Origin: an uncultured Lachnospiraceae bacterium
Lineage (GTDB): Bacteria > Bacillota > Clostridia > Lachnospirales > Lachnospiraceae
Direction of reading: 5' to 3'
Assembly (NCBI GenBank): GCA_947630005.1
Contig: CANRGB010000007.1
Span: 1 to 46,626 of the forward strand
Length of the DNA stretch: 46,626 bases
The notes below the pieces were generated by a model, which saw only the letters and a program-made list of their open reading frames with translations, had not been told where the DNA came from and did not search any database. This document shows positions 16,602-46,540 of this stretch, piece by piece. The position numbers were made by a program, and so were the translations under genes. The number at the start of each line of letters is the position of its first letter. Position 1 is the stretch's first letter.

Positions 16602-16654
16602 AAAAACCGCCGGGAATCAGACTTCTTTTGCTCTTCATCCGACTCTCCGGCGGC
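16602..16654 (-). terminator. Terminator of the AGCS symporter gene
   Basis: On the minus strand GCCGCCGG pairs with CCGGCGG across a long internal loop and is followed by TTTTTATC, about 75 bases after the symporter stop. Confidence 0.75.
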
Positions 16655-16727
16655 ATATCCGTTCTATATAATAATCTTCTTCTGCGGCCTGCTGTTCCAT
16701 GTCCAGGCTTCAGAAGCGTCCGAAAGA

Positions 16728-29241: not shown

Positions 29242-29425
29242 GCTTATTTCCTCCTGTTTTATCTGATTCTCCGTATCTGCCGCCGTCTCAGGCAGAGCCG
29301 GTCCGTCTGGGAACCGACCGTCCGCTCTCCGGGCGAAGCCTGAGCCTGTCTCCTGTCATCCGCATAAGGCCGTAACCATCCGGTGCCGCAGTCTCGCAGC
29401 GGTTCAAAAATCCGGCCCGTCAGAC

Positions 29426-30358: not shown

Positions 30359-30388
30359 GGCCGTTCTCCTTTCTCTTTATGGAAATGG

Positions 30389-30424
30389 ATGATATCACCT
30401 TTTACCTACTATGTCAATAGGTAT
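30389..30424 (-). promoter_or_regulatory. cysK promoter overlapped by an inverted-repeat operator
   Basis: On the minus strand TTGACA (30417-30412) and TATCAT (30394-30389) are 17 bases apart. An inverted repeat, TTACCTA (30402-30408) and TAGGTAT (30418-30424) with a 9-base spacer, covers the -35 box, and a further ACAGGTAT half-site lies just upstream. The arrangement suits an Rrf2-family repressor of cysteine genes; the regulator itself is not in the window. Confidence 0.75.
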
Positions 30425-30535
30425 ACAGGTATTTTTTAAAAACAGTTTAAAGGCTGCGTCAGCAGATGGTTTCCGTGCACGCGCTCGTGCGCACCTGGCC
30501 GGAGGCTTTTTGTGTCACAGAGTGAACTTTTCTGT

Positions 30536-30565
30536 GACGAAAAACACGCCGGAAAATCCGGCGTG
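30536..30565 (-). terminator. Terminator of the dlt-like operon
   Basis: On the minus strand CACGCCGG-ATTTT-CCGGCGTG is followed by TTTTTCG. A second hairpin, GTCACAGA/TCTGTGAC, lies immediately beyond (30513-30539). The remainder of the 30425-30696 gap has no gene. Confidence 0.9.
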
Positions 30566-30696
30566 CAAGTCAAAGAACAGAATTCTGCTGTGAAAGTCCT
30601 CTCCCTCATGCAAAGACAAAAGACAGATCTGCAAAGCGGCGGTCTTTCCCGCACGGAAGTCATCGCCCCGAACCCGCCGCTCTTTGCTTCGGGAAA

Positions 30697-30921
30697 TCAG
30701 TTCCGGAGCCGGCAGATCATATCCCATATGGCGTCCGCGGAATTAAAATTCTCAGGGATGATCTCCGCCGGGGTCAGCGTGATGTCAAACGCATCGCTGA
30801 TCTCGCTGATGATCGACAGAATATCAAACGACGACAGAATCTTGTCATCCGCCAGCGACGTCTCCTCCCCGAAATCCACATCCGGGCAGATCTCCTCCAA
30901 AATTTCCATCAGTTCATCCAT
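30697..30921 (-). CDS. Acyl or D-alanyl carrier protein (DltC-like)
   Basis: A 74-residue phosphopantetheine carrier protein: four-helix sequence starting MDELMEILEEICPDVDFGEE, with LSSFDILSIISEISDAFDI holding the serine to be modified at the start of helix II. The ATG at 30921 has GGAGGATG upstream. It is the last gene of the operon after the MBOAT, SGNH and adenylation genes, so it should carry the aminoacyl or acyl group from the adenylation enzyme to the membrane. The usual DSL triad is replaced by SSF, which is a common variant in DltC-like proteins. Confidence 0.85.
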   Translation of the reverse strand: MDELMEILEEICPDVDFGEETSLADDKILSSFDILSIISEISDAFDITLTPAEIIPENFNSADAIWDMICRLRN

Positions 30922-30987
30922 TTTCGCATCCTCCTTCTTCTTTTTCCGGCCTCCGCGGCCGGCAGTCACATTTCTCCATGTACGAAA

Positions 30988-32541
30988 TCACTTTGCGGGA
31001 CGCTCCGCACGCGCACCGCGGCGGCCGTTTCCTTCTGTATATAAACCCAAAAGCCGCTTCCTGTCAATCTTTCCGTTTTTGGTGAGCGGCATTTCCTCCA
31101 CCTGGCGGAACACATTCGGAATCATATAATCAGGCAGGCAGCTGCCGAGCGCGCGTCCAAGCGCGCGGCGCTCCACATCGCCCTGATAAAAGCAGACGAT
31201 CTTATTCCTCTCCGCGTCAAACACGCAGCAGCTCCGCACGACGGCCCCGATCTTATCCAGCGCCGCCTCGATCTCGCCCAGCTCGATCCTGTGCCCCATA
31301 TGCTTGATCTGAAAGTCCCTGCGGGAGGCAAAATAAAGCGCTCCGCTCTTATCGTAGATCCCCATATCGCCGGTCCGGTAGATCAGTTCCTGGTAGCTGT
31401 GATTTAAAGGATTCTGCACAAACGACCGCCGCGTCTGCTCAGCGTTGTTGTAATATCCGAGGGCCAGCGCCGTGCCGGAAACACAGATCTCGCCTTCCAC
31501 GCCGGGTTCTGTCACCTCCCGGTCATTCTCATCCAGCAGAAAAACGTGCTCGTTCGCGAAAGCCCAGCCGATGGGGATCGCTTCGCCCGCCTCAAATTCG
31601 CGGTCCAGCACATAGAACGTGCAGTTGCAGGTGATTTCCGTCGGGCCATACAGATTCACATACATGGCGTCCGGGATAAACTTCCGCCAGTAATTCAGAT
31701 GGCGCACCGGCATCGTCTCGCCGGAAAACATCACGCGGCGGATCCTGCCCGGCACCTTGTAGGAGAAACCGTTCATGGCAGAGACGATGCACAGGGCGGA
31801 CACCGCCCAGGTGAGGCTGGTAACGCCTCTCTCATCCAGGAAATCAAGCAGCATCATCGGAAACGAAAAATACTGCCGCGGTATGATCTGCACCGTCGCC
31901 CCTGTCTTCAGACCCGCGTAGATATCTTTCACCGACACGTCAAAATCCCACGGCGCCTGATTGCCGATCACATCCTGATCGGTGATTCCGAACTTTTCCG
32001 TAAACTCCCCGATAAAGTCGATGACGCTGCGGTGACTCACCACCACGCCCTTCGGCACGCCCGTGGAGCCCGAGGTGAACATAACGTACAACGGCCAGAT
32101 GTCCTGCCGCTGCGCCCGCACTTTTTCAAGCAGGGCCTCATCCGTTTCGGCCTGAAGCAGCGCGCAGGAATCCAGCGCCTCCGGCGCCTGCGGAATCTCT
32201 TTCTGCAGATACGCCCTGCCTGCCTCATCCGTGACGATCAGATCCGCTTCCAGTGCCGAAAGGATCTGACCAAGGCGGAGCGCCGGCTGCGCGGGATCCA
32301 GCACCACATAAAATCCGCCCGCGTACACGATGCCCATCAGGATCTTGATCGTGCGCACGCTCTTTTCCATCAGCACCGGAACCGGCTTTTTCAGGCAGCC
32401 GCGCCCGGCAAGAGCGCTGCCCGCCCTTTTTGCGCACGCGCGCAGTTCGGCAAACGTGCACTGTTCCGTCTCGTCCGCAAACGCGGTCCGGTCCGGGAAC
32501 CGGTCAGCTGACTGCTCCAGGTATTCCAGAATACTTTTCAT
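30988..32541 (-). CDS. Amino-acid adenylation enzyme (DltA-like)
   Basis: A 517-residue ANL-superfamily enzyme that activates a substrate with ATP and loads it on a carrier protein. Core motifs are YVMFTSGSTGVPKGVVVSH (A3), NLYGPTEITCNCTFYVL (A5), YRTGDMGIYDKSGALYFASRRD (A7/A8) and LTKNGKIDRKRL (A10 Lys). The PWDFDVSVKDIYAGL motif has the Asp that grips an alpha-amino group, so the substrate is probably an amino acid, as in DltA. The ATG at 32541 has GAGGGAAAG upstream and overlaps nothing; the SGNH gene stops two bases before. The carrier protein follows 66 bases later. Confidence 0.88.
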   Translation of the reverse strand: MKSILEYLEQSADRFPDRTAFADETEQCTFAELRACAKRAGSALAGRGCLKKPVPVLMEKSVRTIKILMGIVYAGGFYVVLDPAQPALRLGQILSALEADLIVTDEAGRAYLQKEIPQAPEALDSCALLQAETDEALLEKVRAQRQDIWPLYVMFTSGSTGVPKGVVVSHRSVIDFIGEFTEKFGITDQDVIGNQAPWDFDVSVKDIYAGLKTGATVQIIPRQYFSFPMMLLDFLDERGVTSLTWAVSALCIVSAMNGFSYKVPGRIRRVMFSGETMPVRHLNYWRKFIPDAMYVNLYGPTEITCNCTFYVLDREFEAGEAIPIGWAFANEHVFLLDENDREVTEPGVEGEICVSGTALALGYYNNAEQTRRSFVQNPLNHSYQELIYRTGDMGIYDKSGALYFASRRDFQIKHMGHRIELGEIEAALDKIGAVVRSCCVFDAERNKIVCFYQGDVERRALGRALGSCLPDYMIPNVFRQVEEMPLTKNGKIDRKRLLGLYTEGNGRRGARAERPAK

Positions 32542-32542
32542 C

Positions 32543-33538
32543 TTACTTTCCCTCTTCCGCCTCCTGCCGCTGTTCAAGGATGCGCATGAAATTCTTCGTA
32601 AATTCCCGCGCGGCGTCCTCATTCATATGGCCGTCCAGATCCGTGTAGCTCTCCGTTCTGTGCGAGGCATACTTATAATACTCCCGATTGTTGAAATTAA
32701 TGCAGACGACATCCTTCTTTTTAAAGAACGTTCCAAAGTAATCGTCCGCGTCCTCATATCCCGCCGAAAACCTCCGCAGGGTATCCGCCGGAACCGGCGT
32801 GATCACCGCCGCAAACGCGATATCCTGCGCGCGGCACAGGTCGATCAGCTTTTCCAGATATTCCATATGCTCCTGCCGGATCTCCCTGCGGTCAAACGGA
32901 CGGATTCCGTCGAAGCTGAAGGTGCTGCTGTCCACCGGATACCGCGCCACAAAACCGCTCTCGTGATATTCCTGCGTGTCCGTGCGGAAATCCTCGATCC
33001 CGTAATCCTTCTGCATTTTCTTGCGCACCGTCGTGCCCATGCTGGAGAGTTCGTAGGAAAGGCCGTACTCGTACCACGGAAACAGCATTGTGCGGAAATT
33101 GCACTTCGCCACCGCGTCCCGGAAATATTCCAGCTTCGCGCGCGAGAACGGAAACTCATGGTAGAACAGCAGATAGTTGTTTCCCTCTTCCTTCTCCAGC
33201 GTAAAATAGGCGGGGGCTATCTCGTAGATCACGCGCGACGGCTTTCTCCCGAGCTCGATCAGCAGCTTAATCATATAATACGCGTCCACGCTGTACTCTC
33301 CGCCGACGCACAGATTATGCCCCTTCCGGCCGGTCACCTCCTGCGCGGCCTCCGGATCGATGTTGAGTTTTCCGTGGGAGGTTCCCACGTAGATGTCGTC
33401 AAACGTTTCCACGCACACCGCGTGCAGGTCATTGCGGATAAAGGTACAGGGATACAAAAGAAAATCAAGCCCCGCGAACGTCCCCGCGGCCGCCGCCGCG
33501 ATCAGAAGGGCGCACAGTGTTTTCTTAAAATTGCGCAT
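32543..33538 (-). CDS. Membrane-anchored SGNH/DltD-like hydrolase
   Basis: A 331-residue protein with one N-terminal signal anchor (TLCALLIAAAAAGTFAGLDF) and an extracytoplasmic domain. The first block DIYVGTSHGKLNIDPEAA supplies a Ser and the last block SYTDLDGHMNEDAAREF supplies the Asp and His of an SGNH/DltD-type triad. ITPVPADTLRRF is typical of DltD and AlgX/AlgJ-like partners. It overlaps the MBOAT gene by 14 bases, so the two act together: MBOAT moves an acyl group across the membrane and this protein passes it to an outer acceptor. The acceptor (teichoic acid, peptide, glycan) is unknown. Confidence 0.78.
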   Translation of the reverse strand: MRNFKKTLCALLIAAAAAGTFAGLDFLLYPCTFIRNDLHAVCVETFDDIYVGTSHGKLNIDPEAAQEVTGRKGHNLCVGGEYSVDAYYMIKLLIELGRKPSRVIYEIAPAYFTLEKEEGNNYLLFYHEFPFSRAKLEYFRDAVAKCNFRTMLFPWYEYGLSYELSSMGTTVRKKMQKDYGIEDFRTDTQEYHESGFVARYPVDSSTFSFDGIRPFDRREIRQEHMEYLEKLIDLCRAQDIAFAAVITPVPADTLRRFSAGYEDADDYFGTFFKKKDVVCINFNNREYYKYASHRTESYTDLDGHMNEDAAREFTKNFMRILEQRQEAEEGK

Positions 33539-35039
33539 AGATAAAACCTCTCGGTGCTGCCGTCGATCCGAACAGGCCGATACAGACGAGCAGCAAAAGA
33601 TAAATGCCTGCGGTTACCGGAAGCGGAGGATCGGACAGCTTTTCCCGTATCCTGCCTCCCCACTCCTGCACGCAGCCTGCCGCCACCATGATGACGCAGC
33701 CCGCCGCAATGATCAGAAGCGCCTGCGGCACAAACGCCGTTCCGCCGCTTCCCGCGGGAATGTCCAGAAGCTGAGCCGGAGCGAAGTGGGTAAACGCCTG
33801 CTTCACCATGTAAAGCCCCTGCCCGAGACTGTCCGAACGGTCAAAAAACCAACGCAGGTTCACCAGGATAAAGGTGCGCACGATCGCGAAAGCCTGGTAC
33901 CAGCGCTCCTTCCCACTGATATGCAGCGCCTTCTTCCAGCTTCTGTAATGTCCGGCCATCAGCTCGCTGAAGGCAATGATCCCGCCGTTCATCAGGCCGT
34001 ACACCACATATTTCCAGCTCGCGCCATGCCAGATTCCTACAAAGAAGAATACGATCAGATCCGCCAGCGCGATCGGCACCACGCGCCCCGTTTTCCTGCC
34101 GAACACCTTTTTCGACCATCTGGAAAAACGGAGCATCCACTTTGACAGGGAGAGCGGATAAAACACGTAATTCTTCATCCACTCGCCCAGAGTGATGTGC
34201 CACCGCTCCCAGAATTCCGCCATCGATTTAGCAAGATACGGTCTGCGGAAGTTTTCGTCCATGGAGACTCCGAACAGATTGCCGATGCCGATCACCACGT
34301 CCATCGCGCCCGAAAAATCCCCGTAAAGCTGAATGCCGTAAAAAAGCAGGGCGAACAGCGCGACCCCGCCGTAACGGTCCAGATCGCCCCAGATCGCGTC
34401 CGCAAACACGCCCGCCCAGTCGGCAATGATCATCTTTTTGCAGTAGCCCAGGATAATCCGCCGCAGTCCCCGGGAAATATTTTCCCACGCGAAAGCGTGC
34501 CCCTCGTACAGCTGTCCGGCCAGCCTTTTATAATTTCCGATCGGCCCCTGCAGAAGCTGCGGGAAAAACGACACAAACAGCGCGTAGCGGAACGGATTCC
34601 TCTGCGCGCGGACCCGCTTCCAGTACACATCCAGCAGATACCCCGACGACTGAAACGTATAAAAGGAAATGCCGAGCGGCAGCAGTACCTCCAGCCCCCT
34701 GATGTTCCAGTGAAACAGCAGGTTCAGATTGTCCACAAAGAAATTTGTGTACTTCACCACGCCAAGCATTCCCAGATTTCCTATAAGCCCAAGCGCCGCC
34801 ATGCGCTTGATCTGCTTCGGCGCGCTCCCTTTCTGCTGCATCCGGTCAATCTGCAGCGCGCACAGATACGTGACCGCCGTGGAGAACAGAAGAAAGATCA
34901 GATACCGCGCGCTGCCGGAGAGGTAGTAAAGATAACTGAAGACCAGCAGACAGATCCACCGGTATTTTTTCGGCGCCAGATAATACAAAATCACGGCGGC
35001 CGCCACAAACAGCACAAACAGATTGGATATCAGCGACAT
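33525..35039 (-). CDS. MBOAT-family membrane O-acyltransferase (DltB/AlgI-like)
   Basis: A 504-residue polytopic protein that transfers acyl groups from a carrier protein or CoA to an acceptor outside the cell. It shows the hallmarks of DltB/AlgI: PLGISFYTFQSSGYLLDVYW, SFFPQLLQGPIGNYKRL, GIQLYGDFSGAMDVVIGIG, WERWHITLGEWMKNYVFYPL and the catalytic His in VGIWHGASWKYVVYGLMNG. The ATG at 35039 has GGAGG six bases upstream; the frame extends to 35141 without one. It begins a four-gene set (MBOAT, SGNH, adenylation, carrier) that equals a dlt operon in another gene order. Confidence 0.92.
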   Translation of the reverse strand: MSLISNLFVLFVAAAVILYYLAPKKYRWICLLVFSYLYYLSGSARYLIFLLFSTAVTYLCALQIDRMQQKGSAPKQIKRMAALGLIGNLGMLGVVKYTNFFVDNLNLLFHWNIRGLEVLLPLGISFYTFQSSGYLLDVYWKRVRAQRNPFRYALFVSFFPQLLQGPIGNYKRLAGQLYEGHAFAWENISRGLRRIILGYCKKMIIADWAGVFADAIWGDLDRYGGVALFALLFYGIQLYGDFSGAMDVVIGIGNLFGVSMDENFRRPYLAKSMAEFWERWHITLGEWMKNYVFYPLSLSKWMLRFSRWSKKVFGRKTGRVVPIALADLIVFFFVGIWHGASWKYVVYGLMNGGIIAFSELMAGHYRSWKKALHISGKERWYQAFAIVRTFILVNLRWFFDRSDSLGQGLYMVKQAFTHFAPAQLLDIPAGSGGTAFVPQALLIIAAGCVIMVAAGCVQEWGGRIREKLSDPPLPVTAGIYLLLLVCIGLFGSTAAPRGFIYAQF

Positions 35040-35164
35040 TTTTTCCTCCGTAAATATTATGGCCTGCTCATAATCGGGCAGGAGGCGACAAAACAAACGA
35101 GGATGCCCCGGAACAGTCCGTTCGTTATTCTGAAAATCCAAACGGCCGCCCCCGCAGCATCCTC

Positions 35165-35223
35165 ACTGTAACCATATTCTGTTACTGTTCACTTCCTCAC
35201 TGCAATGGCGTGTGAACTGTAAC
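35165..35223. repeat. Dispersed inverted-repeat element, copy 2
   Basis: TTACTGTTCAC (35183-35193) and GTGAACTGTAA (35213-35223) pair with one mismatch, and an upstream CACTGTAACCATATTCTG flank resembles the first copy at 16363-16462. It lies just after the secreted repeat-protein gene and before the MBOAT gene (minus-strand order). A long-range GAGGATGC/GCATCCTC pair (about 35099-35165) is adjacent. Confidence 0.65.
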
Positions 35224-35227
35224 CCGG

Positions 35228-36013
35228 TCAGTTCATCAGGCCGCCCTGCAGACAGTTCTGCGCCGCCGTACTGCCGCCTCCGCCGGAACCGGAAGAACCG
35301 CCGGAAGAGCTCCCGCCGCTGTAGCTGGAGCCGCTGTCATAGTAAGTGTTGTCATAGCTGGCACTGTCGTCATAATACGTGTCTTCATAGCTGGCGCTGT
35401 CGTCATAATATGTGTCTTCATAGCCGGCGCCGTCGTCATAGTACGCGTCGTCATACTCCACCGCTTCGCCGTCATCCTGCTGCTCCGTCTGCGTTTCCCC
35501 GGCAATCTCCTGCTCCGCCTCCAGAGTGGTTGTTCTTTCCCCATCTTTCTTATAGACAAGATAGGCCGTATCTTCTTTCAGACGGATCCGTGATCTTTTC
35601 ATCTCCGAAAACGAAAACGCGTGAAGCTCCGCCGCCGTATCGTCGTCAAAGCCGAGCAGGATCACATAGGCTGTCTCTTCCCCGTCCGCTCCGTCTTCCG
35701 CGCTCTCCGGCACATAGTAAAAGATGCGCGCTTCTCCGTCCGCGAACACATCTCCCTCCGCGAGCAGATTTTCCGTAAATTCTTCCGCCGTCTCTTCTTT
35801 AATTGCGAAGGTTGTGATGTTCTTTCCGGTCACGTTCGTCAGCCGCGCTCTCAGCGCGCCTTCCTGCTTCTCCCCGATCAGCTTTTTCTCCGTCACAGCG
35901 TTTTCTTCCCCGGACGTGACAGCCTGATCCGTCTGTTCCTCCGCCGGGCAGACCATTCCGGCGCTCATCGCCAGAAACGCGGCACAAAAGGCCGCCGCAA
36001 ACATTTTTTTCAT
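35228..36013 (-). CDS. Secreted protein with Tyr/Asp-rich 11-residue tail repeats
   Basis: A 261-residue exported protein: signal peptide MKKMFAAAFCAAFLAMSAGM, a folded region of about 140 residues with beta-strand patterns (ARLTNVTGKNITTFAIKEE, ARIFYYVPES, TAYVILLGFDDD), then an acidic tail. The tail contains about four 11-residue repeats of the type TYYDDSASYED, encoded by 33-bp direct repeats (35336-35455), and ends in a Gly/Ser-rich stretch and CLQGGLMN. No known domain. It follows the two transglutaminase-like and one wall-repeat gene and may be a surface or substrate partner. The acidic Tyr-rich repeats could bind metal or be crosslinked; that is speculation. Confidence 0.8.
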   Translation of the reverse strand: MKKMFAAAFCAAFLAMSAGMVCPAEEQTDQAVTSGEENAVTEKKLIGEKQEGALRARLTNVTGKNITTFAIKEETAEEFTENLLAEGDVFADGEARIFYYVPESAEDGADGEETAYVILLGFDDDTAAELHAFSFSEMKRSRIRLKEDTAYLVYKKDGERTTTLEAEQEIAGETQTEQQDDGEAVEYDDAYYDDGAGYEDTYYDDSASYEDTYYDDSASYDNTYYDSGSSYSGGSSSGGSSGSGGGGSTAAQNCLQGGLMN

Positions 36014-36106
36014 ACCCTTGTCCTCTCATTTGCAAATACTGCGGATCCCATGATCACACGCTCCATGCCATGCCGGCAGAACCGCATCTCTTCCGGGATC
36101 CCGATG

Positions 36107-36913
36107 TTAATTTACCCGAACTATATTCTGATACTTATATGTGTGCTTTGCGCCGTACTGGAACATCCAGCCGGTATTTTTCCCGTATACAGACGCATAC
36201 TGTCCCGCCAGATTCGGATCGCATACATACGTCTTTCCGTTTAGATCGATCTCCACCCAGGCATGTTTTCCGTCCGTTCCGTTCGCCTGCGGAACCGTTC
36301 CCTTCACATAATGCGCGTCGTATCCGAGAACTTTCGCAAAATAATAGAACAGACATGCCTGCACGTTGCAGTCGCCGCGCTTGTAGAGCAGACCGTAGGA
36401 CGCGAAATACTGCGGGGTCTTTCCGTTCGTGTCGATCGCCTGGTACGGAAGCTTCGCCGCCCAGTCAAACGAAGTCCGTATTCTCGGCTGCGGAAGCTGC
36501 TGCAGCAGCTGAACCGTCAGCTCCTCCGCCGCGGACATCTTTCTTGCCACGCCCTTGGAATCGATGACGTAATGGCTCTTCCCGACCGGATAGGCCCTCC
36601 TGTCGGTCAGCATCTCGCCCTTTTTGTTGAAGCAGTAGTATTTCCCGCCGATCTTTTTCAGGCCGGCCGCCGCCGCTCCGTCCGCTTTCGGATCCAGATA
36701 GTATTTTTTCCCTTTATAGGAAAACCAGCCTGTCTTATGCTTTCCGGCCGCGTTGACGTAGTATTTTTTCCCGTTTTCCTTCTTCCAGCCCTTCTTTGCC
36801 GCTGCCGCCGTGCTTGCCGCTGCCGTAACCTTCTCCCCGGCCTGCGCCGCTGTGCCAAAAGCCATCAGCAGCAGAAACAGTGTCAGAACAAAACGTATGC
36901 CTCTTTTTTTCAT
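36107..36913 (-). CDS. Secreted wall-repeat protein with transglutaminase-like domain
   Basis: A 268-residue exported protein. Signal peptide (FVLTLFLLLMAFGTAAQA), then about four cell-wall-binding (choline-binding-like) repeats, for example GWKKENGKKYYVNAAGKHKT and LKKIGGKYYCFNKKGEML, then a transglutaminase-like domain. The likely triad is Cys in LYKRGDCNVQACLFYYF, His in GKHAWVEIDLNGK and Asp in VCDPNLAGQY. Such enzymes in gut Firmicutes are thought to be surface proteases or crosslinkers. The ATG at 36913 has GGAGG six bases upstream. It is 18 bases after the middle repeat protein gene. Confidence 0.85.
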   Translation of the reverse strand: MKKRGIRFVLTLFLLLMAFGTAAQAGEKVTAAASTAAAAKKGWKKENGKKYYVNAAGKHKTGWFSYKGKKYYLDPKADGAAAAGLKKIGGKYYCFNKKGEMLTDRRAYPVGKSHYVIDSKGVARKMSAAEELTVQLLQQLPQPRIRTSFDWAAKLPYQAIDTNGKTPQYFASYGLLYKRGDCNVQACLFYYFAKVLGYDAHYVKGTVPQANGTDGKHAWVEIDLNGKTYVCDPNLAGQYASVYGKNTGWMFQYGAKHTYKYQNIVRVN

Positions 36914-36931
36914 TTTTTCCTCCATTCCGCT

Positions 36932-37525
36932 TTACCGCGGGTCCAGAAACAGCACCAGTTCCTCCCCGCTCTTGTCGTCCCTGTACAGAGACAGCATAAC
37001 ATATTGATAAGTAAGAAGCAGATCCGTGCCTCCGTCGCGGAAACAGCTGCTGCTGGCGCTCGTTTTTTTCGGTGTCCCCAGATAAGCGCGTATCTTCCGG
37101 GCGTCCGACAGATACGTCAGAGCTTTCTGGATCTTTTTGGTCCTGGTCACATTCACCTTTCCGCTTTTCGCCACATAGTAGGCGTTTCCGGCCATATCGG
37201 CGTACAGCCCGTTCTTCATCAGATGTCCCTTCTGATCAAAACAGTATTTCGCGCCCTTGATCGTCTTGCAGACGACGTTTTTGCTTTTGCCGGGAGCCTT
37301 CGGCGCCGCGTAGGCCACGCCGTTTTTCCCGAAATAATATTTGTACCCCTTTACCGTTTTCCAGCAGTTTTTGGCCTTCTGACCGTTCTGATAGTAATAA
37401 ACCTTCTGACCGGACGTCACAAGACCTGTCTTCCCGGCCGCCGCCGTGCGGATGCCTCCCGCCTGCAGCAGCACGCAGCAGAGAATAAGCAGAATCACTC
37501 CCCCGGCTGTTCTCTTCCTTTTCAT
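36932..37525 (-). CDS. Secreted wall-repeat protein without catalytic domain
   Basis: A 197-residue exported protein: signal peptide (GGVILLILCCVLLQAGGI), followed by cell-wall-binding-like repeats (GQKVYYYQNGQKAKNCWKTV, GYKYYFGKNGVAYA, GAKYCFDQKGHLMKNG). The C-terminal 60 residues (TKKIQKALTYLSDARKIRAY onwards, ending SGEELVLFLDPR) have no match I recognise and lack a Cys-His-Asp triad like those in the two neighbours. It sits between the two transglutaminase-like genes with gaps of 27 and 18 bases, so it is co-transcribed and may target or regulate them. Confidence 0.8.
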   Translation of the reverse strand: MKRKRTAGGVILLILCCVLLQAGGIRTAAAGKTGLVTSGQKVYYYQNGQKAKNCWKTVKGYKYYFGKNGVAYAAPKAPGKSKNVVCKTIKGAKYCFDQKGHLMKNGLYADMAGNAYYVAKSGKVNVTRTKKIQKALTYLSDARKIRAYLGTPKKTSASSSCFRDGGTDLLLTYQYVMLSLYRDDKSGEELVLFLDPR

Positions 37526-37552
37526 TTCCCCGTTTATCCCTCCTTGTCTTAT

Positions 37553-38440
37553 TTAGAACTCCGCCTTCGTGTATACCTGATATCCCGGATGGGACGGCAC
37601 AGACGAGCCGAACAGTCCGCCATGCATATTGTCATAATATTTTCCGTCGATTATCACAAATCCATGATCGGCCTTGATCACAACCACCGTCGGCTTGTAC
37701 CCAAGCTCCTTCGCGCAGGCCGCTACCGTACAGGCAAACGAATAGCAGTTGCCGCTGAGCGTGGGCGAACGGAACGTGTTGATCGCTTTCTGATAATACC
37801 ACTCTTTTGCTTTGAATTCAGACCAGTTCGGCGGCTGCGGACGGTAGCGCATATAGGCGAGCAGATACCGGAAGCAGGCCCGCAGTTTCTCCTTCGCCGA
37901 CATGGTCGGCTTCGCATGCTTCTGGATAAATTTCTGCGCTTCCACCTCACACTGCGCCTCCAGCGCAGAAATATACTCGGCTACGCCGTGTATATCAATG
38001 TTGTAATACCGGTTTCCGATGGCATAGGCGCGCTTATTGACGACAAGCTTTCCGTCCTTGTCGAAATAATACACTTTCCCGTTAATCTTGTAAAAGCCCT
38101 CGTCATACCGGCTTCCGTTTTTGCGCAGGTAATAGAGATTTCCCCCGATCTTTACCCAGCCGGTCTTCTGAGTGAGGATCCCGTTCCCCATAAAATAATA
38201 ATACCTGCCGTTGATCTTTGTCCAGCCGACCGCTTTGCTGCCGTCCTGCTGGATGTAGTATCTTCTGCCCTTCGCAGTCTTGTGCCAGCCTGCCGCGCGC
38301 GTATTTTTCTTCGCCTGTGCGCTCTTCTGCGCGGTTTCCTTTACCTGCGCGCCTGTCCCGGCAGCGGACACCCAGGTCCCGGACAGGATACAGAGCAGAA
38401 GCACGGCGGCGGTCAGCCAGATGTTTCTCTTCTTGTTCAT
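37553..38440 (-). CDS. Secreted wall-repeat protein with transglutaminase-like domain
   Basis: A 295-residue exported protein and the first gene of this secreted set. Signal peptide (NIWLTAAVLLLCILSGTWVS), about five cell-wall-binding-like repeats (GWTKINGRYYYFMGNGILTQ, KIGGNLYYLRKNGSRYDEGF, and so on), then a transglutaminase-like domain with Cys in TLSGNCYSFACTVAACAKELG, His in VIKADHGFVIIDGKYYDNM and a following Asp. AGGGTG lies before the ATG and a 17-spaced promoter is 25 bases further up. Its domain layout equals that of the third gene, so one probably arose by duplication. Confidence 0.85.
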   Translation of the reverse strand: MNKKRNIWLTAAVLLLCILSGTWVSAAGTGAQVKETAQKSAQAKKNTRAAGWHKTAKGRRYYIQQDGSKAVGWTKINGRYYYFMGNGILTQKTGWVKIGGNLYYLRKNGSRYDEGFYKINGKVYYFDKDGKLVVNKRAYAIGNRYYNIDIHGVAEYISALEAQCEVEAQKFIQKHAKPTMSAKEKLRACFRYLLAYMRYRPQPPNWSEFKAKEWYYQKAINTFRSPTLSGNCYSFACTVAACAKELGYKPTVVVIKADHGFVIIDGKYYDNMHGGLFGSSVPSHPGYQVYTKAEF

Positions 38441-38464
38441 AAGCAGACACCCTATCTTTTTTTA

Positions 38465-38493
38465 ACTATACTACATATTTTGGAACAGTTCAA
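38465..38493 (-). promoter_or_regulatory. Promoter of the secreted wall-repeat operon
   Basis: On the minus strand TTGAAC (38493-38488) and TATAGT (38470-38465) are 17 bases apart, directly upstream of the first transglutaminase-like gene. Confidence 0.8.
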
Positions 38494-38557
38494 CCGCTTT
38501 TTCCCTATTTTCACCATGGGATAACGGACGTGTGAATACTCTTTTGCCCTTTTCATT

Positions 38558-38588
38558 AAAAAACGGAGCCTGAAACGACTCCGTTTTT
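38558..38588. terminator. Bidirectional terminator after the acyl ligase
   Basis: AAAAAACGGAG (38558-38568) and CTCCGTTTTT (38579-38588) form a hairpin with A- and T-tracts on both sides, 12 bases after the ligase stop. It ends the TetR-controlled unit and separates it from the secreted-protein unit. Confidence 0.9.
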
Positions 38589-38600
38589 CCCAGTCCAAAA

Positions 38601-40109
38601 TCACTGTCTTTTTATTTTTTTCGAGGGTGTTTTTTCAAATTCCGTGTCCCTGAGTTTCAGGCGGTATACTCTTTTATAAGCCGGAGCCCCCTCATTATAC
38701 CGGTCGATCACTTCCTGAAGCGCGGCCCTCACATCCAGGATCCCTTCCTCCGCGGCATATTCTTCATCCGGGAAGATCTCCGCCTCGATCACGCCTTCCT
38801 TCTCCCTCACCAGGATTTCCCGGACCAGGCGATCCTCGCCGATCCTGTTTTCCAGCTCCTCCGGCGAGACATTCTCTCCGTTTTTGGTGATGATCAGGTT
38901 CTTCTTCCTCCCGGTCAGATAGATGAAGCCGTCCGCGTCCACATAGCCCAGATCCCCGGTGCGCAGCCATCCGTCAGCAAGCGTCTCCTTCGTCTCCTCC
39001 GGCATCTTATAATACCCCTGCATGACGCTGCTGCCCCGCACCCACAGTTCCCCGTCCACGGTCTTCGCCTCGCAGTTCGGGATCAGCTGTCCCACCGACC
39101 CTTTGCGTATGTTCCAGGGCAGCGTGGTGCTGATAACCGGGGAACACTCGGTCATTCCGTATCCCTGCAGGATCGAGATCCCATACGTCTCAAACAGGTC
39201 AATCATGGCCGGAGGCAGATACGCGCCTCCGCTGCAGATCGTGTGAAACTGTTCGCCGAACAGCTCCCTTTTTACGACAGCCGGCGGAAGCTTCCGCGCG
39301 GACTCCAGCTTCTTCGCAAGCGTCTCGATCATCAGCGGAACCATCAGAATGATATTCGGCCGGAACAGCTGGATATTTTTCGCCATCCGCAGCAGAGAAT
39401 CGTTGATGCAGACCACGCTTCCGACGGAGAGTCCCTTCAGGATATCCATGCTCAGACAGTAGGCATGGTGAATCGGGAGTACGCTCATCAGTACCGACCG
39501 TTCCGGAAATTTCATATCAAAGCAGGTTGCGTTTTCCGCCAGATTCCGGTGAGTCAGCATGACCCCCTTGCTCTTCCCCGTTGTGCCGGAGGTGAACATG
39601 ATCGTCGCGAGATCCTCCGGCGCAGGGTCAGTACAGCAGCCCGGCGTCTGCGCGTCTGTCAGCTGCCAGAACGAAAGTACCTCCCCGTCGCTCTGTTTCT
39701 TCTGCATCGAGATGACATAGTTCAGTTTCGGGCAGCGCTCCTTTGCCTTCGCGATCACATCGGCGCGCACCTCGTCCGCCACCAGAACCGCCGCGTCGGA
39801 GCGGTCGATCAGTTCCCACATATCCTCCGCCGGAAGCGACACATCCAGCGGAACCGCCACATTGCCCCCGCCCGTGATTCCAAAATAAGCGGTGATCCAC
39901 GTATAGGAGGTCATGCCGGTCAGCGCCACATGGCTGCCCTCCTCCACGAGCGAGGCCAGCGCCGCGGAGAAGCGCTCGCTGTCCTGCCGCAGATCGTCGT
40001 AGGATTTCGCCTCGATCTTATCTTTTCCTATTTTATATCGGATCGCATCCTCTTTTCCATAGCGCTGCTGCGCCTGCACCAGAATCTCCCGGATTGTACT
40101 GTATACCAT
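38601..40109 (-). CDS. Acyl-activating AMP ligase
   Basis: A 502-residue ANL-superfamily ligase resembling long-chain acyl-CoA/acyl-ACP synthetases. Motifs: TIMFTSGTTGKSKGVMLTHRN (ATP loop), LPIHHAYCLSMDILKGL, QGYGMTECSPVISTT, RTGDLGYVDADGFIYLTGRKK and the C-terminal lysine in EKTPSKKIKRQ. The missing amino-acid-gripping Asp motif and the LPxxH block point to a carboxylic or fatty acid substrate. AAGGAAAG lies before the ATG. It follows a carrier-protein gene across a minisatellite, so it probably loads that carrier rather than CoA. Confidence 0.87.
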   Translation of the reverse strand: MVYSTIREILVQAQQRYGKEDAIRYKIGKDKIEAKSYDDLRQDSERFSAALASLVEEGSHVALTGMTSYTWITAYFGITGGGNVAVPLDVSLPAEDMWELIDRSDAAVLVADEVRADVIAKAKERCPKLNYVISMQKKQSDGEVLSFWQLTDAQTPGCCTDPAPEDLATIMFTSGTTGKSKGVMLTHRNLAENATCFDMKFPERSVLMSVLPIHHAYCLSMDILKGLSVGSVVCINDSLLRMAKNIQLFRPNIILMVPLMIETLAKKLESARKLPPAVVKRELFGEQFHTICSGGAYLPPAMIDLFETYGISILQGYGMTECSPVISTTLPWNIRKGSVGQLIPNCEAKTVDGELWVRGSSVMQGYYKMPEETKETLADGWLRTGDLGYVDADGFIYLTGRKKNLIITKNGENVSPEELENRIGEDRLVREILVREKEGVIEAEIFPDEEYAAEEGILDVRAALQEVIDRYNEGAPAYKRVYRLKLRDTEFEKTPSKKIKRQ

Positions 40110-40124
40110 AATTCTTTCCTTCTT

Positions 40125-40352
40125 CCGTTCGCTTTTCCTCAGGTTTTCTGTCTGCCCTCTCAGTCCGGCGGCTTTTCCGAAGCCTTCTGCCGGGTCCTCA
40201 GCCCGCCGACTTTCCCGAACCTTTCTGACGGCTTCTCAGTTTGCCGGCTTTCTCAGAGCTTTCTGCCAATTCCCCAATCCGCTGGCCTTCTCAGTGTTTT
40301 CTTACGGATCCTCAGCCCGCCGGCTTTCCCGAACCTTTCTGACGGCTTCTCA
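40125..40352 (-). repeat. Six tandem 38-bp repeats after the acyl carrier gene
   Basis: Read on the minus strand, six units begin TGAG(A/G)A...CCG and are each 38 bases long (40352-40315, 40314-40277, 40276-40239, 40238-40201, 40200-40163, 40162-40125). Units 1 and 4 are nearly identical; unit 6 is the most diverged. The first TGA of unit 1 is the stop codon of the carrier gene, and the last bases of that gene resemble the end of unit 3, so the array seems to have grown from the gene's 3' end. It fills the whole gap to the ligase gene. Confidence 0.88.
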
Positions 40353-40577
40353 GTTTGCCAGCTTCTCCAGATACTCCGCGGCCTGTCCGACCGTACGGAT
40401 CCCGGCCACCTCCTGCTGGTCGATCTCCAGATCAAACTCATCCTCCAGCTCTCCGAGCATACTCATAAAATCAAACGACGTAAACCCGAGATCCTCCATG
40501 AACCTGGAATCCTCGTGGATATCCGACGGCTCTACTTCCACATAATTACAGATGATTTCCGATAATCTTTCAAACAT
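40350..40577 (-). CDS. Acyl carrier protein
   Basis: A 75-residue phosphopantetheine carrier: FERLSEIICNYVEVEPSDIH, then the attachment-site region DLGFTSFDFMSMLGELEDEF with the serine in TSF, and a final helix TVGQAAEYLEKLAN. It is highly acidic, as carrier proteins are. It lies between the condensation-type protein (30 bases upstream) and the acyl ligase (after the repeats), which suggests that the ligase loads it and the condensation protein unloads it. It differs from the DltC-like carrier at 30697-30921, so the two systems are separate. Confidence 0.92.
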   Translation of the reverse strand: MFERLSEIICNYVEVEPSDIHEDSRFMEDLGFTSFDFMSMLGELEDEFDLEIDQQEVAGIRTVGQAAEYLEKLAN

Positions 40578-40606
40578 TTCCCTGTCTTCCTTTCCGAATA
40601 ATTCTT

Positions 40607-42010
40607 TTATACTGCTTTGACAATGTCCTCAATCTTCTGCTCCGGATTCTCGATTCCTCTGAACATGATCCTGCACAGATAATAATACAGGTATTCCAGC
40701 TGCTCCCTGGTGACCGCCTTCGTCTGATGCTCAAAGCTGAAATCAAGCCCGTTGTCCTCGGTGCGGTGCATAACCGTCAGATACATGGCCTGCGTCGTCG
40801 CTCCGTTCGGATACCATTTTGTCCTGTAATGGATATCGCCGAGGCGGTCAAGCTGATTCTCCCTCATCGTCAGCGGCTGATACGTCAGCGACATCGGTTC
40901 GTACGTCTGTCCCGGCTGAACCGGATATTTTTTTGCCCGGTACGCAAAATACTCGACCGGATCGAAATTGGCGTGGCGGAAGTACTCATTCTGCAGGGAG
41001 CGGATCTCACAGAGCCCTTCCATAAACGTCTTTTCCGGAGAAATGACCGTGCGGAACGGGAAAGAATGGATCCTGGTCCCGCCGGATTTCTTCTCCTTCA
41101 AAGTCGCCCGCCTCGCGATCGCCGTGTTGATCGAGACATCATCGTTTCCGTTCATCTTCTGGAAATACGTGCGCAGTCCCATCAGAAGCAGACAGACAAG
41201 CGAGACATGCTGTTCCTCGCAGAACTTTGTAAGCCGCGCCGTCGGCTCCGCTTCCAGGTGGAAGACATCAAGCGCGGAATCCACGGAATCCGAGACGTTG
41301 ACCGCCGCCCTGAGGGCCGGATTATGGCAGCGCTTCCGCTCGTCCTCAAGCTTCTTCCGCCCGTCAGTTCCGTTGTAAATCGGCTCGGACGCGTCGATCA
41401 GACGGTGGAAAAATTCCGTATCGCGCTCCTTCGCCCTGCAGCCCGCCTCATACGCGAGATCCTTCTGCAGCTGCTCGACATAGGAGGCCATCTCCTTCGG
41501 CGGCGCGACCTGCTCATACATTGTGCTGGCGTACAGCTCAATGACATCCTTCAAAAAACAGATCAGCGACTGCGCATCCATCGTCATATGATCGACCAGC
41601 AGATACACGCCCTCATAGCCGTCCGGCGTCCTGATCATGACGATCCGGTTCATCGGGGAATCCTTCCGCTTGAACGGGACCTGCGTCCACTCCGTCATGA
41701 TCCGCTCGGCTTCTTCCATTGTTTTCCCTGTGAAATCAACAAATTCAATCTCCCGGTCGTCCGTATCCACAACATACTGATACCAGTTTCCCTCTTTGTC
41801 CTCCGCGAAACGCAGCCGCATGGAATCGCAGCGCTCATACGCCCTGCGGATCGACTGCTTCAGTACCTCGCGGTCAAGCTCCATCTCAATCGTCAGACTT
41901 GTTCCGATATTCAGCACCTCTTTTTTCGGGCATTTGTCCTGATAAAAAAAGTGAAATTTCTGTGCTGCGGTAAGCGGATACACCGGGTATCCTTTTCTTT
42001 TTTTCATCAT
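40607..42010 (-). CDS. Stand-alone condensation-domain acyltransferase
   Basis: A 467-residue protein of the NRPS condensation / chloramphenicol acetyltransferase-like superfamily. It starts YPVYPLTAAQKFHFFYQ, has the C2-like block RAYERCDSMRLRFAED, and an active-site block LLVDHMTMDAQSLICFLKD that keeps the catalytic His and Asp but has Asp for the first His and Ala for the last Gly of HHxxxDG. No adenylation or carrier domain is attached. It should join an acyl group from the nearby carrier protein to an amine or alcohol. The ATG at 42010 has GGAGG ten bases upstream; the ATG right after it is equally possible. Upstream lie three 67-bp repeats. Confidence 0.85.
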   Translation of the reverse strand: MMKKRKGYPVYPLTAAQKFHFFYQDKCPKKEVLNIGTSLTIEMELDREVLKQSIRRAYERCDSMRLRFAEDKEGNWYQYVVDTDDREIEFVDFTGKTMEEAERIMTEWTQVPFKRKDSPMNRIVMIRTPDGYEGVYLLVDHMTMDAQSLICFLKDVIELYASTMYEQVAPPKEMASYVEQLQKDLAYEAGCRAKERDTEFFHRLIDASEPIYNGTDGRKKLEDERKRCHNPALRAAVNVSDSVDSALDVFHLEAEPTARLTKFCEEQHVSLVCLLLMGLRTYFQKMNGNDDVSINTAIARRATLKEKKSGGTRIHSFPFRTVISPEKTFMEGLCEIRSLQNEYFRHANFDPVEYFAYRAKKYPVQPGQTYEPMSLTYQPLTMRENQLDRLGDIHYRTKWYPNGATTQAMYLTVMHRTEDNGLDFSFEHQTKAVTREQLEYLYYYLCRIMFRGIENPEQKIEDIVKAV

Positions 42011-42030
42011 TTTTATATATCCTCCGATTA

Positions 42031-42230
42031 CAGTTCTCCGTCTGTTTTCCGTTTTCCGGTCAGTGATCCTGATTTTTCGGCGGCTCAAACTTTCCTTCAG
42101 CTCTCCGTCTGTTTTCCGTTTTCAGGTCAGTGATCCTGATTTTCCGGCAGTCCAAACTTTCCTTACAGCTCTCCGTCTGTTTTCTGTTTTCAGGTCAGTG
42201 ATCCTGATTTTCCGGCAGCTCAAACTTTCC
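42031..42230 (-). repeat. Three tandem ~67-bp repeats before the condensation gene
   Basis: Units at 42031-42097, 42098-42165 and 42166-42230 are close copies (each contains GTCAGTGATCCTGATTTT and CTCTCCGTCTGTTTTC). The array fills the gap between the alpha/beta hydrolase stop and the condensation gene and ends eight bases from the ribosome site of the latter. It has no resemblance to the 38-bp array downstream. No gene is encoded; open frames across it are incidental. Confidence 0.9.
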
Positions 42231-42266
42231 GGAAACCCGGAACGAACGCGGCTTTTTCTGCCAGTT

Positions 42267-43235
42267 TCAGACGGTTATCGTCTCTTTGATCAGTTCATCC
42301 AGCGCACGTTCGTACGCTTTCGGATCTTTATAGTAACTCTCAGCGTGCGCCGCGCCCTCCACGATCAGTTTTCGTTTCGGACTTGCGCAGTTCTCATAAA
42401 TTTCATCACACATGCGGCACGGCACAAACGTGTCCGCCGATCCGTGGATCAGCAGAACCGGTACCCGGGCCTTTCTCACCTCGCGCGCCGCATTGCATTC
42501 GTCCAGTCCATAACCTGCCGTTTTCTGATTTATCCGGTCCGCTATCTGAATCATCGGGAACGCAGGCATATGATACATAGTCCTCAGCACATGGGAGAAT
42601 ACCTCCTTCGCGGACGTAAACCCGCAGTCCGAGATGATTCCCTTCACCTGCGGCGGCAGAGACAGCCCGCTGCACATCAGAACGGCCGCGCCGCCCATCG
42701 AAGTGCCGTGGAGCAGGATCTGTACATCCTCCCCGCATTTTTCCAGAACCCAGCCGATCCATTTCACCGCGTCATAGCGATCCCTGCATCCAAAACCAAT
42801 ATAGGTTCCCTCGCTCTCCCCGTGCGCCCGCTCATCCGCCAGCAGCATGGAAAATCCGCGGCTCCTGTAATACTCAGACAGACCGATGTAATCGCTCAGC
42901 CCGCGGCTTGTATAGCCGTGAAAACAGATCACCGTCTTTTTCCCTTCGCCGCACGGGAACCAGGTCGCGTGAAGTCTCAGCCCGTCGTCCGATTCCACAT
43001 AAACGTCCTCGTGCAGCTGCCCCATCATTCTGACCTTTCGCTCCTCAATCAGCGGCATGTACTGGCTCCAGTCCGTGCCGGCCATCTTGATCGTGCGCTT
43101 TGTCTTTGCATTCCCGCGAATCATGGTCCGCCGGTAAAAATAAACCGAACCCACGGTTTCCGCCGCGGTCAGCGTGCCCGCGAGAAGCGCCGCGCCCTTT
43201 GCGATATTCTTTGCGGCACCTTTTTTCATGATCAT
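42267..43235 (-). CDS. Membrane-anchored alpha/beta hydrolase
   Basis: A 322-residue alpha/beta-hydrolase-fold protein. A hydrophobic N-terminal segment (NIAKGAALLAGTLTAAETVG) probably anchors it, with the catalytic domain outside. Oxyanion region ICFHGYTSRG, nucleophile elbow LLHGTSMGGAAVLM, Asp in LIHGSADTFVP and His in VEGAAHAESYYKDP complete the triad. Closest in layout to Firmicute serine aminopeptidase-like (BAAT/S33) hydrolases. GGGAGG is upstream; the start may be 43235 or the second ATG at 43229. It is the first gene behind the TetR operators and heads the condensation/carrier/ligase set, so it may release or hydrolyse its product. Confidence 0.87.
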   Translation of the reverse strand: MIMKKGAAKNIAKGAALLAGTLTAAETVGSVYFYRRTMIRGNAKTKRTIKMAGTDWSQYMPLIEERKVRMMGQLHEDVYVESDDGLRLHATWFPCGEGKKTVICFHGYTSRGLSDYIGLSEYYRSRGFSMLLADERAHGESEGTYIGFGCRDRYDAVKWIGWVLEKCGEDVQILLHGTSMGGAAVLMCSGLSLPPQVKGIISDCGFTSAKEVFSHVLRTMYHMPAFPMIQIADRINQKTAGYGLDECNAAREVRKARVPVLLIHGSADTFVPCRMCDEIYENCASPKRKLIVEGAAHAESYYKDPKAYERALDELIKETITV

Positions 43236-43308
43236 CAGTCCTCCCTCCAAGCAGATCCTTTGATCACGTTATATCCTGTTACTGCAATTTGGTTTTCAGT
43301 ATCCATGT

Positions 43309-43367
43309 TTCGACCATCGGTCGAATCATTTTCCGATATCATAGTACTTTTTCGACCGGCGGTCAAT
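43309..43367 (-). promoter_or_regulatory. Hydrolase promoter with two TetR-type operators
   Basis: Palindrome TTCGACC-ATC-GGTCGAA lies at 43309-43325 and the near-copy TTCGACC-GGC-GGTCAA at 43351-43366, 42 bases centre to centre. On the minus strand, -35 TTGACC (43366-43361) falls inside the second site and -10 TATGAT (43343-43338) follows after 17 bases; the first site covers the early transcribed region. The divergent TetR gene begins 167 bases further on. This is a typical repressor layout. Confidence 0.85.
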
Positions 43368-43424
43368 CAGCCATTCAGACAAATCTGCCCGGAAAATTTC
43401 AAATTTCCCGGGCAAAATTACGGC

Positions 43425-43453
43425 TGTTTAAAAAGATTTTTCTATGCTATACT
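43425..43453 (+). promoter_or_regulatory. Candidate promoter of tetR
   Basis: TGTTTA (43425-43430) and TATACT (43448-43453) are 17 bases apart, 38 bases before the tetR ATG. Just before it, TGCCCGG (43387-43393) and CCGGGCA (43409-43415) flank an AAATTT-rich palindrome, a strong hairpin or a third protein-binding site. Confidence 0.6.
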
Positions 43454-43491
43454 AAATATTGCCTATATCACGTTCACATAAGGAGGCTTTT

Positions 43492-44163
43492 ATGAAAGGC
43501 TCTAAAAAATACGATCAGATTCTGGACGCACTGCAGGAACTGATGGAAGACAAGGATATCCGCTCGATCTCGGTCAGCGAAATCGCGAGAAAAGCCGGAA
43601 TCGGCAAAGGAAGCATCTATTATTATTTTCCGTCCAAGGACGCGATCCTCGACGCACTGGTGGAACGCAGCTACCATACCTCTCTGGAGACGGCCAAGAG
43701 CCTGGCCGGTCAGACGGAACTCTCGCCATTTACGCGCATGGCGCTGCTGTTTGAGGCGTGCCGCAGCTCGTCAACCGAATTTTTAAAACGGGAAATGCTG
43801 ATGGAATCGAAAAATAAAGAACATGCCGCGGAGGAAACAACCCCTGCGGCACAGACGGAAAAACAGGAAAAGAACCGGGAACAGGCCCACGTCCACCGGA
43901 AATTTCTGACCTACGTGATCAGCGAACTGAAGCCGGTTCTCACGGAAATTATTCAGCAGGGAATCGATCAGAAGCTGCTGTGCTTCGACGACCCGGCCGC
44001 GCTGGCAGAGCTTGTGCTGATCGTGCTCGCCGTCAAGCTGGACAACTATCTGATCCCCTCCACCCCTCAGGAGACGGAGCGGACGCTGCGCGGGCTGACC
44101 ACGCTGCTTGAAAGCGGCACAGGAGTTCCGCGCGGGACACTGGATTTTCTGACGGTATTCTGA
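43492..44163 (+). CDS. TetR-family transcriptional regulator
   Basis: A 223-residue repressor. The N-terminal helix-turn-helix is clear: ISVSEIARKAGIGKGSIYYY, then FPSKDAILDALVERSY. The C-terminal ligand-binding part includes a charged linker (EETTPAAQTEKQEKNREQAH) and the last helices ALAELVLIVLAVKLDNYLIP. The ATG at 43492 has AAGGAGG six bases upstream; the frame runs back to 43459 without one. It is divergent from the hydrolase/condensation/carrier/ligase genes and very probably controls them, with a lipid-like or hydrophobic ligand. Its 3' end overlaps the antisense AAA/nuclease frame by 131 bases. Confidence 0.93.
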   Translation: MKGSKKYDQILDALQELMEDKDIRSISVSEIARKAGIGKGSIYYYFPSKDAILDALVERSYHTSLETAKSLAGQTELSPFTRMALLFEACRSSSTEFLKREMLMESKNKEHAAEETTPAAQTEKQEKNREQAHVHRKFLTYVISELKPVLTEIIQQGIDQKLLCFDDPAALAELVLIVLAVKLDNYLIPSTPQETERTLRGLTTLLESGTGVPRGTLDFLTVF

Positions 44164-46504: not shown

Positions 46505-46540
46505 ATAGATACCTCCCACATCACTCGTTCATTAAAGCAA

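Follow-up and report, generated by a model that had tools for sequence, protein, structure and literature searches.

The DNA analysed here (the window) is a 46,626-nucleotide contig (CANRGB010000007.1, our C7, of assembly GCA_947630005.1) from a 3.2-Mb draft genome, 82.8% complete, of an uncultured Lachnospiraceae bacterium, and it carries a 12.5-kb locus (30697–43235) that probably consists of two independent loci lying side by side: a fatty-acid-amide (FAA, 'CTA') cassette (43235–38601) and a surface aminoacylation module (38440–30697). The original prediction had divided the locus into unit (a), with a hydrolase, a stand-alone condensation protein (C), a carrier (T) and an adenylating ligase (A); unit (b), a secreted set of transglutaminase (TG)-like, wall-repeat and Tyr/Asp (YD)-repeat proteins; and unit (c), with an MBOAT, an SGNH-like protein, an amino-acid adenylating enzyme and a second carrier. 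Its gene content and coordinates are borne out by the list of open reading frames (ORFs), 12 in number and all on the minus strand, and by Pfam, which supports Condensation, PP-binding (first carrier only), two AMP-binding domains, MBOAT, choline-binding repeats in three proteins and Transglut_core (36107–36925 only). The genes of unit (a) are separated by 256, 29 and 240 bp, and 160 bp lie between its ligase and the first gene of unit (b), tg1; the gaps are 27, 6 and 93 bp within unit (b) and 182 bp between units (b) and (c), and unit (c) has overlaps of 14 and 2 bp followed by an 18-bp gap.

The prediction had gone on to propose that the three units serve one surface pathway, and this held only for units (b) and (c), which are conserved together, unit (a) being independent of them. 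The gene-neighbourhood search suggested at the time, now run, found (a) apart from (b) and (c) in relatives. A contig scan yielded 147 relatives of the condensation gene, of which 80 were kept (by their titles mostly Lachnospiraceae or other Clostridia, and mostly metagenome-assembled genomes), 44 of them with ∼10 kb downstream. Searches by tblastn over the 80 loci returned no SGNH, dltC-like, wall-repeat or YD-protein gene, one MBOAT (in locus L104) and one weak TG match (L086), and a profile scan of the same loci added a weak TG match in L074 and, at L104, an AlgX-type gene; it returned no copy of the C-terminal tail described below. The MBOAT/AlgX-type pair of L104 (L104:3325-5848) is 6.6 kb away from the condensation gene, on its upstream side; this is the sole such (a) locus of the 80, and it is without a tail gene.

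Within the window's own genus, the condensation gene is present in 12 of 47 genomes (9 at ≥60% identity). Unit (a), counted at ≥60% identity, and the (b)+(c) genes co-occur in 4 of these 47 genomes and are not associated (Fisher p = 0.44); with the 37% identity class of the condensation gene added, both are present in five genomes (Fisher p = 0.48). Three of the 15 module loci (L261, L263 and L354) end before the upstream flank, and among the 12 that can be assessed unit (a) adjoins (b)+(c) in one, the window itself. Two genomes have a 93% identical condensation gene; in one of them, G304, the (b)+(c) genes are on a different contig (MBOAT 92% identical), preceded by dehydratase and permease genes.

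On gene order and motifs, unit (a) is of an already known kind, an FAA/CTA cassette, with two conserved extra genes. The stand-alone condensation enzyme (40607–42010; Pfam Condensation) is adjoined by an acyl carrier protein (40350–40577; PP-binding) and a fatty-acyl adenylating enzyme (38601–40109; AMP-binding; top NCBIfam model a long-chain fatty acid ligase, below its cut-off), giving the order C-T-A, and the aligned pocket of the ligase is without the amino-binding Asp. Over nearly its full length the condensation protein matches PDB entry 12kh ('Condensation Domain Protein', 465 residues; E = 1e-102, the next entry having 1.8e-7), which is probably OaaC, the free-standing C protein from the FAA pathway of Coprococcus eutactus. 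Its motif, DHMTMDA, falls within the FAA-clade definition (D/H)HxxxD[S/A/G], and its placement in that clade combines this motif with the 12kh match. The excerpted text of PMC13142362 gives the clade motif as (D/H)HxxxD followed mostly by Ser (42%), Ala (36%) or Gly (17%), and the stand-alone C, T, A order is the same there for OaaC, OaaACP and OaaA of C. eutactus and, in excerpts of PMC13060934, for the Blautia wexlerae CTA operon. According to the latter excerpts, a survey of 7,781 isolate genomes placed a three-gene CTA operon in 36 species, every one of them a member of the Lachnospiraceae, and in Blautia the operon is tied to fatty acid detoxification. The window thus shares with the described cassettes the (D/H)HxxxD motif, a Lachnospiraceae host and a full-length relative in 12kh.

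The two extra genes are an alpha/beta hydrolase (42267–43235; Pfam Hydrolase_4, a GTSMG motif and, read from the sequence, an N-terminal hydrophobic segment) and a TetR-family regulator (43489–44163, plus strand; Pfam TetR_N) that is divergent from the cassette. Among the relatives with enough flanking DNA, the hydrolase precedes the condensation gene in 76 of 76 (at least 1 kb upstream), the carrier and ligase follow it in 70 of 70 (≥2 kb downstream) and 62 of 70 (≥2.2 kb upstream) have a TetR gene in divergent orientation; DHxxxDA is present in 75 of the 80. By contrast, 14 further, more distant loci (34–38% identity) are OaaC-like: 12 of them have DHxxxDS and 12 a carrier and ligase (one in another order), and a hydrolase was seen in five, in one of these after the ligase on the opposite strand. 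These differences in hydrolase, TetR and DHxxxDA conservation place the window in a subgroup marked by a regulator and a fourth conserved gene. The FAA/CTA preprints describe three genes in the text excerpted, where a hydrolase and TetR gene were not met, and unit (a) extends a cassette that produces host-active lipids. In the scheme that we favour the ligase would charge the carrier with a fatty acid, which the condensation enzyme would couple to a free small amine, the TetR regulator and hydrolase being predicted parts of the same cassette.

Units (b) and (c) are one conserved module. It occurs in at least 15 of the 47 genus genomes (14 recognized by the tail pattern, and G322 by its DltA match), and in all 14 genus loci with visible flank (the window included; L354, cut at its tail gene, is outside this count) the genes for TG protein(s), tail protein, MBOAT and SGNH-like protein stand in one unbroken run, though not always in the same order. 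Outside the genus, L142 has part of the module, and L143 has it complete, with TG, tail, MBOAT, SGNH, carrier and adenylating-enzyme genes. A search with a profile of the YD domain (alignment A1), made without reference to acyltransferases, found 21 places, distributed over 19 of the 299 family genomes, and in a sample of 291 genomes of the class it found the domain in the window's own genome alone. Thirteen of the 21 places adjoin a membrane acyltransferase, seven do not and one is at a contig edge. The acyltransferases are of three set-ups: an MBOAT and SGNH-like protein with a carrier (the window and L143), an MBOAT and AlgX-type protein with no carrier (L204, L205, L207, L209, L210, L211, L212 and L307) and, at three tail loci (L206, L208 and L221), AT3 alone in place of the MBOAT–SGNH pair. 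A TG gene is in the same gene run at 12 of the 13 places and, conversely, 14 of 17 TG places outside the window's own genome (those in which the TG domain is covered) adjoin an acyltransferase, the exceptions being L217, L220 and L222. Since the same partners stand beside carrier-type MBOATs, carrier-less MBOAT/AlgX-type pairs and AT3, they appear to follow trans-membrane acyl transfer itself. The (b)+(c) module is probably a form of MBOAT–SGNH surface acylation with a recurrent partner set for which no description was found, the titles and abstract openings listed by the literature searches holding no account of this gene combination.

An unusual feature of the set is the conserved end of the secreted protein encoded at 35228–36013, which in the window comprises a family-restricted YD domain and a Tyr/Asp linker and has no Pfam match (the YD domain alone gives scattered single-member Pfam matches, best E = 0.0006, and a best PDB E-value of 0.46). 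Proteins at this position have differing bodies, for example an SH3 domain in L261, and the same C-terminal end: NCLQGGLMN in the window (conserved tail CLQGGLMN-stop, 35228–35254), ACLTGGVLN in L261, ECLTNGLLN in L256, GCVDDGLTY in L143 and GCLDGVAIN in L211. The tail Cys (Cys254) is the sole Cys of the window protein beyond its N-terminal signal region. A regular expression for the tail, derived from these same proteins and applied to 3.3 Mb of loci of which many were collected on their account, fits 13 of 11,678 distinct frames; each of the 13 lies at an acyltransferase locus and has a signal-like N-terminus. When the Cys of the expression was exchanged for any one of 14 other residues, 0–3 frames matched. 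Across the 47 genus genomes the exact pattern at DNA level has 14 matches, one each in 14 genomes, and all are module tail genes. Among the YD genes found with A1, the 12 assessable ones beside an acyltransferase (L209 being cut at its C-terminus) have the Cys tail in 11 cases, one of them in another frame, L307 lacking it, whereas the seven YD genes away from acyltransferases are all without a Cys in the final 22 residues (for L306 <1 kb of downstream DNA is available); the difference has a Fisher p of 1.6e-4, or 7e-4 without the other-frame case.

Five tail copies stand in tandem in L260. In L205 (L205:11793-12683) the tail-protein gene is in a different frame from its three-copy tail motif, which may reflect a frameshift, phase variation or an assembly error. 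At two TG–MBOAT–AlgX loci (L219:12929-13873 and L223:5496-6467) the neighbouring secreted proteins share a different end, DCDGSGHGYYIIT[WY]SDGTV, and here too a Cys is near the C-terminus. Two other roles for the tail were considered and dropped: that its Cys replaces DltX, once a FxYxxF motif had been found on the MBOAT itself, and that it is a general sorting signal with many substrates, the window's own draft genome having one match and the genus genomes one each (looser variants may escape the pattern).

The remaining proteins of unit (b) are secreted and bear choline-binding-type wall repeats. Two of them had been predicted to be TG-like: tg2 (36107–36925) stands, with a Pfam Transglut_core match above cut-off, and in tg1 (37553–38440; Choline_bind_3), where Pfam finds no Transglut_core match, only a Cys/His spacing read from the sequence points the same way. 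Between them lies cbp (36932–37525; Choline_bind_3), which is fused to the TG protein in L142. Cys, His and Asp are invariant in 12 of 12 sequences of our TG alignment (A3), a feature in common with the superfamily that joins the TG core and arylamine N-acetyltransferases (NAT), to which GdmF and NAT1 belong; in PDB, the A3 profile comes closest to GdmF (E = 8e-5), then to a TG-like protein (0.0016) and to NAT enzymes (0.0046, NAT1, to 0.0095). Unlike GdmF and NAT1, the window enzyme is secreted, bound to the wall by repeats and encoded next to a membrane acyltransferase.

Unit (c) had been equated with dlt genes, an assignment that its DltA, DltB and DltC parts fail to support: NCBIfam scores are 266 bits against a cut-off of 559.85 for DltA, 162 against 375 for DltB and 24 against 68 for DltC, and the SGNH-like protein has no NCBIfam match, to DltD or any other model, and no Pfam match at a threshold of 0.001. 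The MBOAT (33525–35045; Pfam MBOAT; NCBIfam DltB, E = 2e-47) has 506 residues, compared with 380 positions in the DltB model, and ends in FIYAQF (33528–33545), a DltX/PatA-type acyl-shuttle motif of the form FxYxxF. According to excerpts of PMC12148441, the Tyr of this hexapeptide bears the acyl group in DltX and PatA, motif-bearing MBOATs have two helices more than DltB, and carrier-fed DltB with a separate DltX contrasts with CoA-fed MBOATs that bear the motif themselves. The window combines carrier genes with a motif fused to the MBOAT, a set-up not met in those excerpts. No separate DltX microprotein was found: among all frames of at least 15 codons in 29001–44500, only the MBOAT ends in FxYxx[FY]. 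At the 14 other module loci the MBOAT ends in FIYAQF (12) or FLYAQF (1), L353 having no such end in frame, and 15 of 16 stretches around SGNH matches have an MBOAT with an FxYxxF-type end. Among the other MBOAT ends examined, L268 (LIYAGF) is the exception. Downstream follow the SGNH-like protein (32543–33538; GTSH ... DLDGH in alignment A2), so called for a G-x-S and a D-x-x-G-H invariant in 13 aligned sequences, a DltA-like amino-acid adenylating enzyme (30988–32544; AA-adenyl-dom above cut-off) and a DltC-like carrier (30697–30969; NCBIfam DltC, E = 2.6e-5; 69% identical to its L142 homologue).

Set against PatA/PatB-type MBOAT–SGNH pairs as excerpted from PMC12148441, the window thus has the same MBOAT end and a putative SGNH-type partner just downstream, and differs in having adenylating-enzyme and carrier genes instead of an acyl-CoA donor, and in its TG-like and tail proteins. 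With the Dlt system (DltABCD and DltX) it shares an adenylating enzyme, a carrier, an MBOAT and an SGNH-like protein, and it departs from that system in the fused motif, the sub-cut-off scores, the gene order and the extra secreted partners. The presence of adenylating-enzyme and carrier genes in the operon suggests that the donor to the MBOAT is the carrier rather than an acyl-CoA.

The DltA-like enzyme keeps, in its pocket DVKTMSLCN, the Asp that amino-acid activators use. By comparison with the known D-alanine pocket, the amino acid would probably be one other than D-alanine. The pocket DVKTMSLCN is common to L142 and nearly the same in a sister group of carrier-type operons (L144, L146, L147, L149, L150, L151 and L152) with the order dltA, extra gene, dltC, MBOAT, SGNH-like. 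The extra gene resembles a pyridoxal phosphate (PLP)-dependent decarboxylase or racemase in L144 (Pfam), with a similar N-terminus in the other six, and by analogy its product may alter the amino acid, perhaps on the carrier; BtrK is reportedly an enzyme that acts on a carrier-bound amino acid. In L143, L353, L355, L356 and L357 the corresponding adenylating enzyme is without the amino-binding Asp. The last four, which belong to one genus, have the same MBOAT, SGNH, tail and TG set and an adenylating enzyme of a different type (∼25% identity), and since the partners are kept, the acyl group seems, from these sequences, to have been exchanged. Locus L349 of G304 (13896-16711) keeps the MBOAT (92%), SGNH (89%), dltC (87%) and tail genes but is without a dltA in the interval from the SGNH-like gene to dltC, owing either to natural loss or to an assembly gap.

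Several observations weigh against reading (b)+(c) in this way. The partner set is not constant: in L142 cbp and tg2 are fused and no tail gene is seen (0.7 kb of contig is available on the upstream side of the MBOAT), L307 has TG, MBOAT and AlgX-type genes without a tail, L218, L219 and L223 have TG and MBOAT without a CLxGG tail protein, and L206 has no TG within the stretch examined. The module is present in only 6 of 34 stretches around DltA matches in relatives, and a TG partner in 2 of 16 around SGNH matches, so that most carrier-type MBOAT loci are without the TG set. Some of the assignments are also soft. The SGNH label is without profile support (best PDB E-value 0.038), adenylation pockets were located by an alignment made in this analysis, resemblance to NAT enzymes is weak (E = 8e-5 to 0.01) in a case where TG and NAT form one superfamily anyway, and AlphaFold single-sequence models had pLDDT scores (predicted local distance difference test) of 33 and 47 and were useless. 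As for the tail, the strict regular expression fits just 7 of the 12 YD genes, the wider reading behind the 11 of 12 was defined after inspection, and a reversed-pattern control of the genus search gave 8 matches against the 14.

Gene content, motifs, conservation and co-inheritance suggest a likely route for the module. The DltA-like enzyme would load an amino acid onto the DltC-like carrier; the MBOAT would carry the aminoacyl group through the membrane and place it on the Tyr of its C-terminal FIYAQF, from where the SGNH-like protein would hand it on, outside the cell, to a surface acceptor. The TG/NAT-like proteins bound to the wall, of which one is clear and the other recognized solely by its residues, would be dedicated partners, as would the Cys-tail protein, the tail serving as a covalent substrate or as an acyl-carrying arm for the TG/NAT-like enzyme. 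NAT enzymes and GdmF relay acyl groups from thioesters via a Cys. A NAT/GdmF-like profile next to a single Cys in a flexible tail would fit two readings: the TG/NAT-like enzyme acylates or crosslinks the tail, or the tail carries the acyl group as a thioester. We hold the former likelier. For the latter, which we regard as doubtful, the tail would be an extracytoplasmic acyl carrier: the MBOAT relay or AT3 would load an (amino)acyl thioester on its Cys, and the NAT/TG-like enzyme would make a surface amide or ester from it. This would amount to swinging-arm carrier chemistry outside the membrane, without phosphopantetheine, on a tail borne by a secreted or lipid-anchored protein. If the tail does carry or receive an acyl group, a new kind of extracellular covalent chemistry would be opened up; the TG/NAT-like enzyme and the secreted protein with the Cys tail are met again and again next to acyltransferases, in three set-ups.

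Other explanations fit parts of the data. That all three units form one surface pathway, the condensation system making or attaching an acyl group for the secreted and MBOAT proteins, would account for their common strand, the mere 160 bp between ligase and tg1, and two carriers and two adenylating enzymes in close range; we rejected it as very improbable, and largely refuted, on the neighbourhood and presence data, with SGNH, dltC-like or tail genes at 0 of the 44 condensation loci with ∼10 kb downstream, adjacency in 1 of 12 genus loci and unassociated presence (p = 0.44). A scan for promoters and terminators was not decisive, yielding a weak promoter-like site before tg1 that also speaks against a single pathway. 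An ordinary D-alanyl-teichoic acid (dlt) operon in a new order is unlikely as an explanation of unit (c), despite the relatedness to DltA, DltB and DltC and an MBOAT with an SGNH-like partner: the canonical operon was rejected on the NCBIfam cut-offs together with the DltX-like motif being on the MBOAT and on no separate ORF within 29001–44500. Moreover, 6 of 60 relatives, each from the window's genus and one of them the module-bearing G322, have an above-cut-off DltA match at another place, relatives with an additional PLP enzyme in the operon show the same aligned pocket, and at four genus loci the adenylating enzyme has been swapped for one without the amino-binding Asp.

The two remaining rivals concern the partners. 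The TG-like, wall-repeat and tail proteins might be unrelated surface passengers beside acyltransferase operons; choline-binding-type repeat matches are numerous in these genomes, several TG–MBOAT loci have no tail protein and most carrier-type MBOAT loci have no TG set. We nonetheless think this rather unlikely, as 14 of 17 TG and 13 of 21 YD places adjoin an acyltransferase though they were found independently of acyltransferases, the same partners recur with AT3 and with both types of MBOAT, three set-ups in all, and of the four MBOAT genes in the window's own draft genome only that of the window has TG and tail partners. Alternatively, the tail could be the precursor of a signalling peptide that the TG/papain-like enzyme cuts, the acyltransferase modifying the released Cys peptide. 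The tandem tails (five in L260, three in the other frame of L205) are reminiscent of multi-copy peptide precursors, and the short conserved end behind a flexible linker also fits, but the other tail proteins examined have a single terminal copy and no conserved cleavage-site residue, and we consider this quite unlikely.

Beyond the regulator of the FAA/CTA cassette, the window encodes a HEPN and nucleotidyltransferase pair (45937–46519; toxin–antitoxin-like) adjoining an AAA-ATPase-like protein (44033–45757).

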